From the NCBI GenBank assembly GCA_963921795.1, contig OY997639.1, forward strand, positions 63,081,394-63,145,393: a DNA stretch of 64,000 bases. The letters are read 5' to 3'. Position 1 is the stretch's first letter. Each line of letters starts with the position of its first letter. Below the pieces are notes generated by a model, which was not told the origin of the DNA, made no database searches, and saw nothing but the letters and a program-made list of their open reading frames with translations. Below, in pieces: positions 3,501 to 48,400 of this stretch. Made by a program: the position numbers and the translations under genes. Origin of the DNA: Nannobrachium achirus. Taxonomy: Eukaryota > Chordata > Actinopteri > Myctophiformes > Myctophidae.

Positions 3501-5855
3501 AACTGCTCTCAGCTGAACTCTCACATAACTCAGCCGAGTGCCATTTCCTCATATCTCTCTCTGCTCTGTCTCTACAGAGATCCGTTTGTATGAGCAGGAG
3601 GTGATCGTGGTGCCAGTGTTCCTGCTGGCCTCTTTCCTGGTCACCCTGGTCTTCATCCTTCTGCTGCGCTTCTGCCCAGAGAAGGTGGACCGCATCCGAC
3701 CACAGGCCTCCGGGACCTCCTTTAGACCCCAGCGTGTCAGGAGGGTGCTGCAAGGCATCGATGGTAAGACACATGTGCTTTTATAATGTGCAGGAAAGGA
3801 GCAGGCCTGGAATTTCTTCATTTTAGGGGCAAGGTCACTTGGCCTTTGGTGTTGTCCATTTTTTGAGGGCACAAAGGCCAAATGTCAGGGCAGGAAGGCC
3901 ATAAAATAAAACAAGATTTTAGTCCATTGAAATAATTCTTTGAATCTAAGGGTTAAGGATGATAACCTAATCTGCAGTGAAATAGATAAATGATGGTATT
4001 TACAATCTGATGAATCCATGCTCAGCCCTGCACCAATCAAAGTCACTGGATTGGTTTAAGATTTCCGAATCTCAACAAAAAACACTGGTGTCTACATGAC
4101 AAGAAAGAGACACCGGTGTCTACTGTCTACATATTGACAATACAGACAGAGGAGAAAGTGGTACTGTCAGCTGGGGCATTAAGGCCACTGTGACCTCAGG
4201 TCATGCCATTGGTTTGAGTGTCACAAGGCCAAACTGAAGGGCAACAACGGCCATAGCCTTCATGGCCTCCATGAAATTACTGGCCTGGAAAGGACTGTGC
4301 AAGAATACAACGCAGCTTTGTATCAAAAAATGGTCCTTGAGCAAGACACTGAGGGACTGGTACCTTGCAAGCATGGTTCACTGCCTTTACAGTCAGTGTG
4401 TGGATGTGTGAATATAACGCACATTGTAACATGCTTCGATTAAAGGCACGATACAAATGCAGACCATCTTTTTATATTTTCTCATAAATAACGTTGTAAT
4501 CCCTGCTTTTAGATGAGTGTGCCGTAAATAAATTATTATTAACAGTTGAGATACATAATGCATGTTGATGTTGTGTAGTGAACTACACACTCAGGAGTTT
4601 GCATGGAGGTGTGTGGGCGGAGATGTTTGGTATCCGTCAGCCCATCCTTGCGCTAATATCTTTATTTATCCTGCTGATTGCCCTGGTGTATTGTGATGTT
4701 AATACTGGCACCGATTAATCCCCTCACGCCCATATCTCAACACCCTCCCCCCACCCCCATTCTCTCTCTCTCTCTCCTCAGCTCCGGCCGGTCTCAATGT
4801 CCTGGAGGGTGAGGCCATAGCCCTGGACATGCCCAGCACCTACTCCACGTTCACCCCACCCCAGCATGCCTACTCGTCCAGGAGCCTCTCTGTGGCTGTG
4901 GGCGCGCCCTGCCTCGCGTCGGCCAACAACGCCCCGCCGCCTCTCAAGTAGGCCTGTCACAATTATTACATAAACGTCTAACTGCAATTATTTGTCATCG
5001 TCATAATTGTTTCCATGTTGAAAAAATGTCATATAGTTTCAAACATTTTCAAAAATATTGGAAATAGCAGATCTACAAGCTCACAACTTGTGAGCTTGTA
5101 GATCGGCTATTTCCACTATCATGTTTTCTTTAAAGTATATAGTTGTCAAAAATGTCAGTAATTTCTTTGTATATTTAGGTTATGTGTCATATCTGCCAAT
5201 GTGCAACTTGAAAGCCTAAAAAAGCCAAACAGAAATGTAATTGTCAACGACAAAAAAACACAATTAAATCATTAAACACAATTATTTGAGTGACAATTAA
5301 TCGTCCTGTAAAATGTCATAATAATGGTGACGTCTCTACTCCCAGGCCTGTGTTCAACCCGGTGGTCCAGCCCAGGGAGCTGCCGCGCCAGCGGCTGCCT
5401 GAGTCCTTCAACCTGGTCACCCCGCTGCCCTGCGCCTTCTCCCTGCGCACCGACTCGGTGGTCTCCCTCTACAGGGCCCGCATGGAGAGCAGGAACGTGG
5501 TGCTCCGCGTGCTCAACGGTGAGGGAAACGACACAAAGGTTCACCCCAAAAACAGCTGGTGTTCGGGTCGTATTGTAGGGCGCTGGTTCTCAGTGTGGGG
5601 GGTTTAGGGACCCCCAGGAGTCCTCAGCTTAATGACTGATAGGAACTAAAGGGACCCTTGCGGTTCTGTAACTCCCGAGAGTACTAATGGGTCCATTTGG
5701 TTCCATGTGATGTTGATGTTATGTATGTTATATTTTTCATCATTATTCATCATGCTTCTTTTACTGACACATCTCTGTATGAATGTATGGCAGCTGGAGC
5801 TGTTGAACAGAAGGAATGTCCTTCAAGATTAATAAAGTATATACTGTATCTACTA

Positions 5856-5921
<66 letters not shown>

Positions 5922-8900
5922 CACTAAGTGGATGTGCTATTCTAGTTCTGGATAACTAACGATAGATCTACAACATCTCAAACAAGGTTCTCATTGTTTT
6001 GTTTTTTCCTCCTCAGACACTGCGGACGCCACAGAAAGACACAGCTTCCTGGGCTTTGCGTCCTTCCTGGCCCAGCTGGGACCTCATCCCTTCCTGCCAG
6101 AGCTGCTGGGGGTGGTCTCTCTGCGAGCCCCCCTGGTCACCGTGGTGGAGGAGCTGGAGAACAGAGACCTGCTCAGCTTTCTGTGGCGATGTCGACAGGT
6201 AGGGACAGGGGCGTCACAAGGGGGGGAAAAGTGTGACTGAGTTACTAGGGCCCAAGGTGGAGGGGCCTTAATTATTATTATTATTCCGCATGAAAAGCAG
6301 TATATCTGCTATTTTTCAATAGTTAAAGCACAAAATAATGCATAATAATGTGTTCCCAGTCTAAATGGGTTAAACCCCCTCTCCCTATGAAGAACATTCA
6401 TGGGGGGCCCGCAGTGAATCCTTGTACCCAGGGCCCAGAATTTGGTGCACCCCTGGGTAGGGACTAGGGAGTTTGTTTGACCCCGGAAAGAAATACAAAC
6501 TGACACTGCCTCAATCTGTGTGTTGGCTGCTCACTCCTAGTCTAGTGAGACCATTAACATTATTAATCTGTAACGCTTTCTGAGGTTGTAGACCGACTGT
6601 TTTCAGCAAAGACCTTTGGCATAGAGAGGGACTTAGTTTAGAGCCCTGGTTAACAAAGTATACACAGTATTATGGTTTAAGAAGTGGTCAACATAATTTT
6701 ACTCTTTTATCATTTACTTCTCATCTACTTCTCATCTTTGCACTTACACTTAATGTACGGCATGTTGTATTGCATTCTAATGTACAAAATGTGTAAAATA
6801 TTAAAAATAAAAGAATAATGTAATTGACTGATGGTGAATAATAAGCTAGTATCCTATTGTATGATAGGGTGCAGATGAAGTTGTGTGTTGATGGTATTCT
6901 TTTTCTTTCCCAGGACCACGTAGAGCCTGTGTGTGAGATGACAGAGAAACTGATATTTACCATGGCCAAGCAGGTGGCTTCAGCACTGGTCAGTATGCTA
7001 ATGTCTGCTGGATGTCTCTATGCCTGAACGTTTGACTTTCAAATCACTGCAAGCTCCCATAAATCACCCTGTCAACCACAGGAACCCTTTTCATTTTACT
7101 ATGCTGACATTTCCATTCATATTTTTGAACATGTGCAGCCCTGTACACAAACGTTGCCTGCACCACTGTATGTAAATCGTTAAATACACGAACAGACTGA
7201 ACACTAAGCAAAACTTGCAGTTCTACAAGCTCACAACGCATTTTGTTGTGACATGTTGCGAGCTTGTAGATCAGCTATTTCCGGTGAAAATATTCGGTGT
7301 AGAGGAAAAAAGGAGGGACACAAGTCAGCAAAGTATTTGGGTTTAAGTGGTTAAATCGGATCATTTGAGTCGGTGTCAGTTATAACATGGTGCATTTATA
7401 TCACATAACTCTATTATTTGATTGATGAGGAAAGATAACGTTCCTCACTGAGACAGGAATTCAAGAGTTCCATTCCCAAATGCTATAAATCTATTTCCCC
7501 TGACATCAATTTGTCAATGTCTAAATGTTCACTGTCTCTAAAAATGACACACTTTTGTCAACCAAGGACCAACAGAAGCGTGTCGACCAGTTCCTAAGAT
7601 GTTGTCTGCCCTTCTTGTTGCCAAATTAGGAGTTCCTCCACAGCAAGGATCTTCTCCATGGCAACGTCTGTGCTCACAGCGTATTGGTCAGTAAGGAGTG
7701 CACGGCCAAGCTGTGGGGCCTGGAGGCGGTGTTCGCCAGGAAGAACCCGGGAGCCACTAAGAGTGAAGACCGCGTGAAGAAATGGCAGGCACCCGAGATA
7801 CTGGTGAAGAGACCTGCCACTCAGAGCAGTGACATGTAAGTAATGACCCCACGCTGTGTGTTATAATAGACGAAACGCTCTGCGAACATTGCAGATCTAC
7901 AAGCTCACAGCAAGTTAGGTTGTAGCGCATTTTGAGCTTGTAGATCGTCTATTTATGGCAAAGAGATTTGGTGTAGTAGGAAAAGATGTGGGGCTAGTGA
8001 TAGAACCCTGATGTACACCCAACAAAGTATACGGGGTACAAGTATGTATCCGCTAGTATTCTTAGTAAATTCCTCCCCTCCAATACAGATTTAGTAAACC
8101 TGAAATGTATACATTTATATACAGAGATGGTGATTCACTTCCTTACTTAATCGCCAATTCAGCCAGGACCTTCCCCCTGCGGCTCCTCTTACACTTTGTT
8201 CCTTTTGTGCTTTTTACAAAGCTGTTTCACTAAAGAACAACACAAAGGAGAGTTAACGGACCACTCTCTCCTCATTCAAAGATTCAGATCTATCACAAAA
8301 CTGCCCGTAGAGAAGTCGCTATTGTTAAAATATTATATATGCATAATAAACAGCATTTGCTGTATGAAAGGCATGCTTCCATCCTCATTCACTAATTGTT
8401 TCTGTGTGTCTCTTTGTAGCTGGTCTTTTGGAATCTTGCTGTATGAAATGGCAACCCTTGGTAAGTTGACTTTAAGGGACTGTAAAACGAAGTAGGCTGG
8501 GTGACAATGATATGTGTCTATACAAGAATCCAATCGCATAGTTTGCAGTATTTCATGGAATTGAATTGAAATTGATTGTCTGAAACGGACCCAGACACTG
8601 TAGAACTTGCTGCTGCATGTGTGTGATCAAATTCTTCTGAAAGTACATCCTGTCTTCCAAGATTTCAGGAGTGCATGTAGTGGTCTGCTTGTATAATAAA
8701 TGATCATCCTTTAAAAAGAATCCATCCATACACAAGACTCTTATAATTGTGACACTCACCTGTCTACCTCCTCATCCTTTCCAGGGGAAGCTCCATTTGC
8801 TGAAATCCCTGTTAAAGAACTTCTACAGTTCCACCAAAGGGGAAAAACGCTGAAAAGGCCTCCTCACTCCTCCAATACACTGTAAGTATCTGCTGCGAGT

Positions 8901-9634
8901 TACTCTGTATTACAGGTGTATTAACGGGTAATCTCTCGAGAACAGACTCTGATGCTACGCAACAGATGAAAATGAAATTGAAAAGGAAAAAAACAGAGTG
9001 GGCGTTCCCTTTTATTTGACGATGGTTAGCCAGATTGATTAACGGGTAATATAGTAAAACCTAATGTTGCCTGGCTATTTGAGGGTGCTGCGTTTGCGTC
9101 CATGAAAGGTGTTGGCTGTGAACGTTTTGTTAGAAGACAGGGTTTTTAACGGCTGCCGCTCATTTTGACAGCAATTTTTTATTTAGTTTTAGTCCTAGTC
9201 TTTTGACTAAAATTCTGTTTATATTTCAGTCATTCTTTTTTGTTTCAGTCTAGTTTTAGTTGACTAAATACCATACGATTTTAGTCTACTAAATCTACAG
9301 TTGATTTAGCTGACTAAAATGTATCTTGCCGGGCCTTGATGGCCTTGAAATGCCTGATTTATACTCAGCTGTGTGCTGAAAATGGTCATAGTTTTAGTCG
9401 ACAAAATCAACACCGCTCATCCTCATCATCCTCTCTCTTAGATACTCCATCATCAAGTCCTGCTGCCACTGGAAGGAGCAGGATCGACCATCGCTAGCGG
9501 AGCTGAGCCGCAAGATTCAGTCAGGAGAGAAAAGTGCCAACGACAAAGTCATCAGAGTGCCAGAGCCAATGAACATTGAGCGCTACCTAAAGGAAGCCGG
9601 TTATGGGGAAGCGAACAGTTATACCGTCTTCTGA
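578..9634 (+). CDS. styk1: STYK1/NOK-like membrane pseudokinase, 10 coding exons, complete
   Basis: Exons (CDS): 578-632, 3578-3763, 4782-4947, 5346-5518, 6017-6198, 6914-6988, 7630-7835, 8420-8460, 8785-8881, 9442-9634. They total 1374 nt (457 aa plus stop), all introns are GT-AG and all phases agree. Seen: a short N-terminus, one membrane segment (about residues 27-48, VPVFLLASFLVTLVF core), then a kinase-like domain (about 165-430) with WSFGILLYEMATLG and a C-terminal YSIIKSCCHWKEQDRPS, which match human STYK1 (422 aa) closely. Known: STYK1 is a receptor-kinase-like protein with almost no extracellular region, linked to growth signalling. Odd: the VAIK lysine is Arg190 (VVLRVL), the catalytic HRD aspartate is Asn291 (HGN) and DFG is replaced by WGL (308-310), so phosphotransfer is unlikely. 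The first ATG lies two bases after an acceptor-like CAG, so a noncoding 5' exon probably lies upstream. Met at 578 is the first in-frame choice; a second Met lies three codons later. Confidence 0.95.
967..1152 (+). mobile_element. tRNA-derived SINE with perfect 18-bp target duplication
   Basis: The head contains an A-box-like TGGTCAAGG and a B box GGTTCGATTCC, followed by a CT-rich body and an A-rich tail. The direct repeat CTTAAAAGTTCAGAGATC flanks it at 949-966 and 1153-1170, so this is a complete, fairly recent insertion in styk1 intron 1. The body (GACCTTTGCYGCATGTCA) is shared with the copy near 46.8 kb. Confidence 0.9.
1971..2112. mobile_element. Short palindromic MITE
   Basis: Terminal inverted repeats: AAAGGCCCATTCCCACTGGG at the left and its near-exact reverse complement (CCCAGTGGGAATGAGCCTTT) at the right, with a second inner inverted repeat (ATATCTGTCACAGATAT). 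About 142 bp, noncoding, in styk1 intron 1. Confidence 0.8.
3144..3340. repeat. hAT-like MITE fragment with internal foldback
   Basis: Begins with CAGTGGTTCTCAAAGTGG, a typical fish hAT-type terminus, and contains an imperfect palindrome of about 37-bp arms built on AAATGGAACCAAATGAACC. Related pieces occur at about 5583-5710, 11640-11760 and 39027-39302. Confidence 0.6.
3845..4300. repeat. Interspersed repeat, copy 1 (undisrupted)
   Basis: Over about 450 bp this matches 55270-55579 joined to 56702-56800 (shared strings such as GGGTTAAGGATGATAACCTA and AACACTGGTGTCTACATGAC). It has a single TTAA at 4179-4182, where the second copy carries a 1.1-kb insertion, so it serves as an empty-site control. 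Element class not identified. Confidence 0.7.
4320..4475 (+). repeat. SINE-like 3' domain
   Basis: Contains CTTGAGCAAGACACTGAGG and ends GATACAAATGCAGACCATC, wording typical of teleost SINE 3' ends. No promoter head was recognised, so it is probably truncated. Confidence 0.5.
4949..5338. mobile_element. hAT-like MITE that forms almost the whole of styk1 intron 3
   Basis: Left terminus TAGGCCTGTCACAATTAT; the reverse complement of the right terminus agrees at 13 of 18 positions. The right end also aligns with the left end of the related element at 47312, and the left end with that element's right end, so the borders are supported twice. Flanking octamers are CTCTCAAG (4941-4948) and CTCCCAGG (5339-5346), 6 of 8 identical. 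The intron is 4948-5345, i.e. one G, the element and seven bases of the second duplication. The 5060-5114 hairpin lies near its middle. Confidence 0.8.
5060..5114. repeat. Recurrent hairpin, copy a (near-perfect 55-bp palindrome)
   Basis: GGAAATAGCAGATCTACAAG and its reverse complement meet at CACAACTTGTG, with one mismatched pair. This is the most compact copy of the family seen across the window. Confidence 0.9.
5851..5920. repeat. (TCTG)n microsatellite
   Basis: About 17 tandem TCTG units in styk1 intron 4. Confidence 0.95.
6206..6455. mobile_element. hAT-like MITE inserted at the styk1 exon 5 splice donor
   Basis: Termini CAGGGGCGTC and GGTGCACCCCTG. Perfect 8-bp duplication GGTAGGGA at 6198-6205 and 6456-6463. 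The left copy contains the last base of exon 5 and its GT donor, so the insertion landed on the exon-intron border and duplicated the donor. Inside, 6296-6320 holds a collapsed copy of the recurrent hairpin (GCAGTATATCTGCTATTTTT) followed by the shared flank CAATAGTTAAAGCA. Confidence 0.85.
7216..7277. repeat. Recurrent hairpin, copy b
   Basis: Arms TTCTACAAGCTCACAACGC and GCGAGCTTGTAGA surround a loop of about 25 nt; followed by GCTATTTCC. In styk1 intron 6. Host element not delimited. Confidence 0.75.
7889..7951. repeat. Recurrent hairpin, copy c
   Basis: Arms GCAGATCTACAAGCTCA and TTGAGCTTGTAGATCGTC with a diverged loop, in styk1 intron 7. The 3' flank (ATTTGGTGTAG) resembles that of copy b, hinting at a shared host element. 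Confidence 0.75.
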
Positions 9635-13485: not shown

Positions 13486-39589
<26,104 letters not shown>

Positions 39590-45425: not shown

Positions 45426-48400
45426 TCACATGGGTAGTAGGTGGTCGTCTCTCTCCTCTGGCCCCTCGTCCAGGGGCTCTGTAGGTGCACTCCTGTAGGC
45501 CGGTGCTTCCTCTCGACTCCGCGACCGGCACACAAAGTCACACCCATCCTGTGTGATAACCAGGGAGGACAATTTACTTACTTACAAATGAAAAGTCGAA
45601 TCCATTTGTCTGTTACACTAAAATACTGTGTGTTGTAATACGCCACGAAGTCTTAAATTCATTGTGATTCTTTTAGTTTTTGTCGTATTCCTAAGCCAAT
45701 AATTTGATGACCGGCAATGACCAGCGGACCACATATCCGTATGTAAATGCAAAGTATTCCCGCAAACTGAATGCATCCAAAGAGACTCCTACTGGATAGA
45801 CTTGGATACAAGTACATTATTGGCTAAGGAATGCGAAAAGAAAACCCCCAAAAATCTCCATGAAATCAAGGTTTCAAGTAGTTCAAGAGTGAACTACTTC
45901 TTTAAGACCAATATTAATATAATATGCCTTATTTTATATATCAAATTGTTTTCTTCTGCAAATGCTGGACAAGTCAACATAAAAGACATAAAATGGGGCA
46001 TTAGTTAAATGCCAGTTAGATTATGATTATTATTATCTTCTGGTATAGCTGATTTCCGCAACACATTCTTCTTCTTCTTCTTCTTCAAAAAAAGAAACTC
46101 AGTCCCTATCGGCTACCTATTTCAATCCCATCAAAGATTTTTAAAACCATTCAATAAGAGGTAGCTCAATTTATATTATTCCTTTCAGATTTTTCCAAGT
46201 TCCAAAAACACCTTTTTATGTTCTGCTGTGTTACTTCTGCTGCAGAACAAACTTCCAGTATCTCTCAAACAGTTGAAAGTGTTTTAATGTATTTATTTAT
46301 ACATTCATGTATTCATTTGTTACTGTAGTCCTGTATTTGCCAGTCCTATTCCTGCCTGACTTGCAGACCTTCCTCAAGAGAAGCCTTTGGGTAGAGTTGG
46401 GTGGATTTCTGGTTTACCCGGTCCGGTTCAGGTTAGACCTGTTCGATTTTATGTGAACCAGCTGAACTGGTATAGTTCATTATGAGAAGTTCGGGCAAAT
46501 AAAAAATAGCCTACAAAAGCACGTGTTTGACAGCATCATATTTACATACGGATAGTGTTAAATCCATCTTGAATTGCATTAGTAAAGATAAAAAAAATAT
46601 CACAACGTGATAAAGAAATATTATGTTAAACGGAGGCGTGCACTGGGCTTGGGAATCTACATCGCGCAGCGTAGATTGTGAGATCTGGTAGCAGCTTATC
46701 ACGGATTACCTGCTTATTGTCCATTTCATCCCTGAGAATTTAACATGTATTTTTCTTCTTCTTTTTTTTTTACTATGATCAATTCAAATCTCTCTCTCGT
46801 GGCACCACTAGCCTAGCGGTTAAACCACATACCACATATAGGCTCTAATGTAGCCTGCCAGCACGTTGCCAGTTCAGTTCCCGAGCCGATGACCTTTGCT
46901 GCATGTCACTCTGTCTCTCTCCCTGTTCCCAGTCTTTCTCTACTGTGTACTATCAATAAAGGCAGACCAAAAATCTCTCACTGCAAAGTTTGTGATGTGT
47001 CCTGCGGAACCCTGATCAGGTTGCAGTCCCTTACAGCAGACTGTGAAGTAGATACTGTATGTTGGGTCTAACAATAGACACTCAAGATTTGCTCTGACAT
47101 GGTCACACACACAGAATAAACTTTGATACAGAACAGGAATAATAAATACTAGTTACTGAATTCAAGGTCAACACAACAATTAGGTCCCAGTGTGAAATCA
47201 GTTTAAAGTCTCATCTCGAGTGTCAGTGCAAAGATAGATTTACAAGTTCACAATGCGTTGCGACACATTGTGAGATTGTAGATCTGCCATTGTTGTAGAT
47301 CGGCACATGACTAAGGCTGTCATGATTATGACATTTACTTGACGATTAATTGTCATTAATTGTGATTAACAATTGAATTGTGTGGCTTTTAGGCCTTGAA
47401 ACAAAAGTTACACAGGGAAGATATGACAAGAACTTAAATATACCACACCTATACCAATAATCAAAATAAATAAAAAGTAATGTATTATTGCCAAAATACG
47501 CCATAGTCAATATTTTATACTCAAACGTTGTTATAAATATAATAATAATAGTGGAATAGTGGAATAGTTGAAATAGACAATCTACAAGCTCACAATGTGT
47601 TGCATCAAGCTTGTATTTCCATTTTTTTTTTAATGTTTCAAAATGTATGAATCTTTCTCAACATGGAAATGATTATGACGATTATGAAAAATGATTGCGA
47701 TCATCTCAAATAATTGCGATCAGGCTATTGTGCAATAATTGTGCCAGGCCTATGCATGACACGAAATACACCTAGATATAAATCAGGATAAAGCCTCACC
47801 GCTGACAGGTTGCCGACCTCCGCCCAGAAGGCGTAGTTTGGGAACTGCTCCATCCCTTTGGCTCCGACCACCAAACGCTGGTAGAGGAACCCTCCGATGA
47901 GATACACAGCAATGACACAGATGCCACTGAAAGATACAAATCATGAGGAGCTATCATTTTCATATTATGTTTTAGACATTTAGCCAATACTCCCATCCAG
48001 AAGACAGCAGCCTAGTGCAAAGGTGATTCTAGAAAAATGCAGACAAGACAAGACATGGAGTAAAACGTTTAAGGCTTAAATGGGAGTTATAGAAGAAGAG
48101 CGAGATGTAATAGACCTCTGCAGTGTTGACACCAATTCAGGGCCTTCAGAAAAAGTCTGGATTCAAGTTTATCTATCTGTAACGGAAACTGAGTGGTACT
48201 TTTCTATACAGGAATTTTCACTATTGCCAATTACTCTTTAAAAACATCTGTCTGCATATCTCCATTAACATCCAACTGATGGACTTCAAACGAAAAAGTC
48301 TTGATTCTGCGGAGAACAATCCTTGATTCCACTGCTTAAAAAAAGAAAAACAAGCCTAAAATGACCGGTTATCAAGGAAAAATAGATTTTTTTAAATAAT

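Follow-up and report, generated by a model that had tools for sequence, protein, structure and literature searches.

Can a transposon that lands in a coding exon of a vertebrate gene become an intron of that gene? Vertebrates are held to gain introns rarely, and where a new intron came from can seldom be seen. In maize, Giroux et al. (1994) are reported to have described de novo intron synthesis by Dissociation (Ds), which is a hAT element; that case, reportedly an allele of shrunken-2, is a plant one, whereas the case considered here is an intron of a vertebrate gene. It lies in a window of 64,000 nucleotides (the whole stretch of DNA analysed) from the myctophid fish Nannobrachium achirus, on the contig that we call C2, for which an earlier note had proposed that one intron of a styk1 gene was born by the insertion of a hAT-like MITE.

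Introns made by transposons, or introners, have been described by Gozashti et al. 2022 (PMC9860276); some introner families carry inverted repeats and target duplications, and the splice sites come from the element, from the duplication or from both. Among animals and land plants, these authors found introners in two groups only, and they found no gain pattern in vertebrates; within one genome, their families number from 5 to more than 2,000 copies. Transposon-like new introns are in print for slc26a2 of notothenioids (PMC12357937), fish melanocortin receptors have gained introns, those new in the stickleback/medaka lineage containing repetitive elements (PMC3151243), and fish serpins have gained introns without similarity to known repeats (PMC2746811). 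Insertion into AGGT has been reviewed as a route from transposon to intron (PMC3443670), and human intron gains have been studied as well (PMC12124190).

The styk1 gene and the intron at the MITE

We take the gene to be styk1, the name used in the earlier note. Its modelled 438 codons (Table 1) are free of stops and 8/8 introns are GT-AG; the protein contains a tyrosine kinase domain (Pfam PF07714, 1.3e-45) and has the layout of STYK1, i.e. a hydrophobic stretch followed by a degenerate tyrosine kinase domain, in which DFG is replaced by GLE (by GLG in a second copy on contig C10, see below). In Table 2 of a review (PMC13259870), STYK1 is listed with GLG in place of DFG and with the catalytic loop HKD, whereas this loop reads HGN in the window gene; the same review gives a STYK1 structure for matching as unavailable. 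Published STYK1 exon borders were sought in the literature, and none were found.

Re-measurement confirmed that the intron consists of one 390-nt MITE (copy A) and one 8-bp target copy, with flanking octamers identical at 6/8 sites; apart from the element, the intron contains exactly 8 nt. The coordinates proposed earlier for the octamers, the element and the GT-AG intron were all right, and the sequence agrees with the earlier reading of the donor, formed from the G of the first target copy and the TAGG of the element, and of the acceptor CAG within the second copy. The G+C content is 30% in the element versus 67% and 69% in the flanking exons. Splicing at the predicted sites keeps the reading frame intact; retention of the intron leads to an immediate stop, CTC AAG TAG, in which TAG is the first three bases of the element. 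The donor (5.34 bits) and the acceptor (5.85 bits), scored with splice-site frequencies, are the weakest among the eight modelled introns. The next styk1 intron contains a TCTG tandem repeat of 15.8 perfect copies (window 5856-5918).

Table 1. Positions in the window of the styk1 gene model, the intron and the MITE features (a slash marks a splice point)
Feature	Position	Strand	Remarks
styk1 gene as modelled	3578..9634	+	9 exons, 438 aa, kinase domain; CDS start farther upstream, outside the model
styk1 exon 5' of the new intron	4782..4947	+	ends CTC AA, phase 2; gene model
Left target copy CTCTCAAG	4941..4948	+	final base supplies the G of the GT donor; C10 paralogue agrees at both discordant sites
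Predicted intron	4948..5345	+	398 nt, phase 2, CAA/GTAGGC ... CTCCCAG/G
hAT-like MITE copy A	4949..5338	+	390 nt
Internal palindrome of the family	5055..5119		32-nt arms, 94% complementary
Right end of copy A	5326..5338	+	family's CGTGACAGCCCTA changed to GGTGACGTCTCTA; 3-nt insertion just upstream; built-in AG gone
Right target copy CTCCCAGG	5339..5346	+	contains acceptor CAG/G
styk1 exon 3' of the new intron	5346..5518	+	gene model
Stronger in-frame acceptor within the downstream exon	5473..5475	+	ACAG/G, exon start would be 5475; 8.61 bits; skips 43 codons
Related MITE copy B	47312..47752	-	flanks CACATGAC / TGCATGAC, 6/8

The MITE family, its ends and its target duplications

A search of the 1.66 Gb genome gave 4000 first-look candidates, 40 of which were scored; the 39 scored copies other than copy A were fetched and, being those nearest to copy A, do not sample the whole family. 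Their consensus starts with TAGGGCTGTCACAAT and finishes with ATAATCGTGACAGCCCTA, and TAGGGCTGTCAC is found at both of its ends as terminal inverted repeats of a short element with many copies; in copy A itself the ends pair as inverted repeats over 22 nt at 77%. Both ends are present in 31/39 copies, and among these 31, a count that leaves out the 8/39 copies without a clear end, the flanking octamers are alike at 6/8 or more sites in 19, against 6/248 in shifted comparisons; they are identical in 12/39 copies. Duplications of 8 bp and ends of this kind are those of hAT elements. Ac-type elements prefer targets of the form nTnnnnAn, and in the 18 copies whose octamers differ by at most one mismatch, T is found at position 2 in 11 and A at position 7 in 7.

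Copy A differs from the consensus at 31/380 sites (8.2%), or at 21/353 outside its last stretch; for the 39 fetched copies the divergence is 3.3 to 8.1%. The right end of the family has a built-in AG, within GACAGCCCTA in 28/39 copies and within GACAG in 8 more; neither form occurs in the remaining 3/39. The ends of copy A coincide with the family ends, flanked by 8-bp duplications. The borders had previously been placed by alignment to copy B alone, where the right one is blurred; it is the genome copies that now make them firm.

Several other observations concern the family. The family palindrome, GATCTACAAGCTCACAA..., is also present at some 15 or more further places in the window. A third MITE copy (32111-38544) is flanked by a perfect duplication of 8 bp, CACAAGAA, and contains a minus-strand LINE, which has a 1265-aa open frame with Pfam endonuclease and reverse transcriptase matches and a second open frame of 362 aa with no Pfam match; this region had been considered as a full-length hAT element, a candidate that was dropped for a MITE copy interrupted by a LINE. 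Viral contigs scanned for the terminal repeat, for a second family pattern and with the styk1 protein gave no match.

A second styk1 gene with an unbroken exon

A protein search of the genome identified a second styk1 gene on the minus strand of contig C10 (C10:40917352-40907333), with 240/400 aligned residues identical; its exon borders were placed by eye at GT/AG beside the tblastn matches. The seven other modelled styk1 introns coincide between C2 and C10 in both position and phase, and the phase-2 intron at the MITE is absent from the C10 gene, where a single 243-nt exon (C10:40916171-40915929) spans both C2 exons. A 31-residue gap in the alignment adjoins the junction, the C2 linker being longer, so that the exact junction point rests on LKP versus VKP. 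The C10 paralogue reads GTC AAG CCC there, and at the two discordant octamer sites it has T and A, as in the left copy. Judged by the C10 gene alone, it is possible that an older intron was lost from that gene.

Weighing the readings of the intron

The flanking octamers by themselves support insertion but are no proof. The chance of a 6/8 match is P = 0.0042 for random octamers and P = 0.033 for ordinary introns (the latter computed with splice-site frequencies), because the splice-site consensus makes both flanks of an intron look like CAG/G. The same comparison over the eight modelled styk1 introns gives 2, 6, 2, 5, 3, 2, 3 and 1 matches, and the best alternative register within 6 nt gives 4/8. 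Taken alone, the octamers carry little weight. The geometry is the stronger evidence, as the part of the intron outside the element is merely 8 nt, far too short for an intron that predated the insertion.

This bears directly on the reading in which an intron was already present at this site, the MITE entered it and a later deletion removed the old intron save for 8 nt. Although 3.3% of ordinary introns would show octamers as similar as these, such a history needs trimming on either side that stops exactly at the element and spares the very 8 nt that a hAT duplication predicts, and it faces a C10 gene without an intron here but with the seven others in common; we regard it as very improbable. 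The same holds for the reading that the insertion broke the gene, with the intron left unspliced and our model joining a dead exon. The weak splice sites would suit this, and the second styk1 gene could compensate for the loss; on the other hand, the 438 codons are still open and the eight introns still GT-AG although copy A has diverged by about 6-8%, and a GT-AG pair lies exactly on the duplication with the frame kept. It is also conceivable, if unlikely, that the intron is new and real but that the main form uses the in-frame acceptor at 5475, 129 nt into the next exon, which would drop 43 codons and is compatible with intron birth. This site scores higher than the modelled acceptor (8.61 vs 5.85 bits), and a similar CCACAG/GG is found in the paralogue exon; its use would delete residues kept by the paralogue (VTPLP), and past the branch point it is usually the first good AG that the spliceosome uses.

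The reading that we prefer is that, in one of the two styk1 genes, a MITE landed within a coding exon and gave rise to a new intron with the predicted splice sites. In its favour are the ends of the family with their 8-bp duplications, the unbroken C10 exon, another exon that a copy of this family splits and five further genes whose coding sequence reaches the first base of the element (see below); we put its probability at about 0.9.

Proposed steps of intron birth

A non-autonomous hAT-type MITE would have inserted into the styk1 coding exon, duplicating CTCTCAAG, and a GT donor would have arisen at the first base of the element, because the target had G as its last base and the element starts with TAGG. 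The acceptor of the first in-frame intron was probably the one in the right end of the family, GACAG/CCCTA. Joint use of G/TAGGG and GACAG/CCCTA adds 8 + 5 - 1 = 12 nt, in frame and without a stop in styk1, so the first message would have gained Asn-Pro-Thr-Leu. Later, a change of A to G in the right target copy may have created CTCCCAG/G, which removes exactly the element and one target copy, and the old family acceptor would then have been lost (CAG to CGT). We infer both this order of steps and splicing of the RNA as predicted.

The earlier note held that splicing removes exactly the element and the duplication and restores the frame. This stands as a prediction for the present gene, but exact removal was probably not the first state: the C10 gene sides with the left octamer, and with an unmutated right copy CTCTCAAG exact removal is impossible, because the AG there loses one nucleotide. 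Modelled acceptor scores are only 0.46 bits for the family AG in the consensus, i.e. the proposed first acceptor, -0.21 bits for the old target AG, 4.6 bits once CAG/G is present and 5.85 bits today. The last 13 nt of copy A have 4 substitutions (hand count), accompanied by a 3-nt insertion, loss of the family AG and a gain of pyrimidines; compared with 21/353 elsewhere, 4 substitutions in 13 nt give P = 0.006 for a stretch that was picked after inspection.

A second copy that splits a coding exon

The earlier suggestion to look for further copies coinciding with introns yielded one more candidate. A pattern that joins a target ending in MAGG to the terminal repeat matches the genome exactly at 270 places (reversed control: 0). 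From 100 listed matches, 82 were examined (30 loci and 52 fetched), the 18 within 8 kb of another match being left out. Of the 82, 42 pass limits of 2 mismatches in the duplication and 4 in the right end. One of these 42, L114, near position 16574340 of contig C5, clearly splits a coding exon, with 259 aa open over the joined site. In PDB, the open frame on its upstream side is matched by 2fc6, target of EGR1 (E = 0.0033), although the joined 259 aa gave no PDB match at 0.01; the downstream part and four upstream-exon pieces give five Pfam CAF1 matches, three of them above the cut-off (9e-15, 4e-12 and 8e-8) and two just below it (4e-5 each). In view of these matches, we call the gene presumably TOE1-like. 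The duplication GCAGAAGG is perfect, and without splicing a stop is reached after 8 codons. Between the AG of the repeat itself and the end of the duplication, the possible acceptors would add 12, 6, 3 or 0 nt and thus all keep the frame; the one in the repeat scores best (7.76 bits). The whole predicted intron is element plus duplication, although it could be a young, harmful insertion instead, since its duplication is perfect.

Screens covering part of the family found two exon-splitting copies, in styk1 and in the TOE1-like gene. A third candidate from 16-nt flanks (C17:33647761-33648134, octamers 6/8) was rejected, having only 9 open codons upstream in frame, and L118 was left uncounted: it has a perfect duplication and a Myb/SANT-like frame (E = 0.014, below the cut-off), and its coding-looking frames differ by side. 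At L137 and L121 long open stretches are present and a Pfam match is absent; L071, L080, L069, L070 and L131 were assessed by eye. Among the 100 listed matches, nine pairs of CAGGTAGGCCTG ends lie in inverted orientation at a distance of some 7.4 kb (e.g. C2:12015501/12022975, C3:2515821/2523187 and C5:6413922/6421404), which perhaps represent a longer element family with related ends.

Coding sequence that ends at the element

In five genes (CDCP1-, potassium-channel-, POM121-, RPC1- and ESRP1-like) the coding sequence reaches the first base of the element. A CDCP1-like exon (L089; Pfam CDCP1_CUB_6, 3e-24) does so at a copy with a perfect duplication; here the insertion seems to have hit the border between an exon and an intron, because no coding sequence follows beyond the element and the former donor, CAG/GTTTGC, lies on the far side. 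A second pattern, with G or C at every third upstream base, gave 58 matches, 20 of which were picked by eye as coding-like and fetched. Among these 20, a BTB exon (L151; BTB_2, 2.3e-9) that we take to be potassium-channel-like and a POM121-like exon (L161; 5.9e-10) both have a perfect duplication and, beyond the element, the former donor. An RPC1-like locus of the 20 (L159; 2.8e-19) and an ESRP1-like locus of the first screen (L134; 7vki, 2.8e-20) likewise have coding sequence that extends as far as the element; at both of them a right octamer copy was sought at the element end and not found. Three loci (L144, L146 and L155) are coding-like with no Pfam family match, and inspection by eye of the 20 fetched loci for same-frame coding on both sides found none. 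These cases suggest that the TAGG end of the element works as a splice donor; because the loci were selected, the counts give no rate.

Comparison with known transposon-made introns

As in introners, the intron equals element plus duplication in styk1 and, by prediction, in the TOE1-like gene, and it is absent from a homologous gene, styk1 on C10. The introners of Aureococcus add 12 bp, made up of 4 bp of element and 8 bp of duplication, and the first state proposed for styk1 would likewise add 12; the present case differs from the introners described in PMC9860276 in comprising one intron and one strong candidate, found by screening part of a MITE family that is very abundant. The account of slc26a2 intron 3 and NTE-1 (PMC12357937) resembles ours in concerning a fish gene and a recent intron with GT-AG in the direct and inverted repeats of an inserted element, but NTE-1 begins with tgt, ends with aca and has 4-nt direct repeats, whereas the styk1 element family starts with TAGGG and has 8-bp duplications. 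The expectation that a vertebrate case would be notable must be narrowed accordingly: with slc26a2 a vertebrate precedent is in print, and the styk1 intron is a variant of the transposon-made intron. The literature searched, outside which most subscription journals lie, yielded no vertebrate intron reported to derive from a hAT MITE.

Conclusions

In styk1, the source element, its ends, the duplication and an intron-less sister gene are all found in one genome. We put forward, tentatively and as a possibility that we hold to be short of even odds, the wider idea that the very build of this highly abundant hAT MITE family of teleosts makes it splice-competent and that it may act as a vertebrate introner, having made several introns and taken over donor sites. 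If this is true, any target ending in G would allow the terminal repeats to give both donor and acceptor, and their joint use would always add four codons. This frame arithmetic makes the prediction testable across fish: exonic copies that follow a G would be spliced with a gain of 12 nt, and older copies would evolve exact excision.
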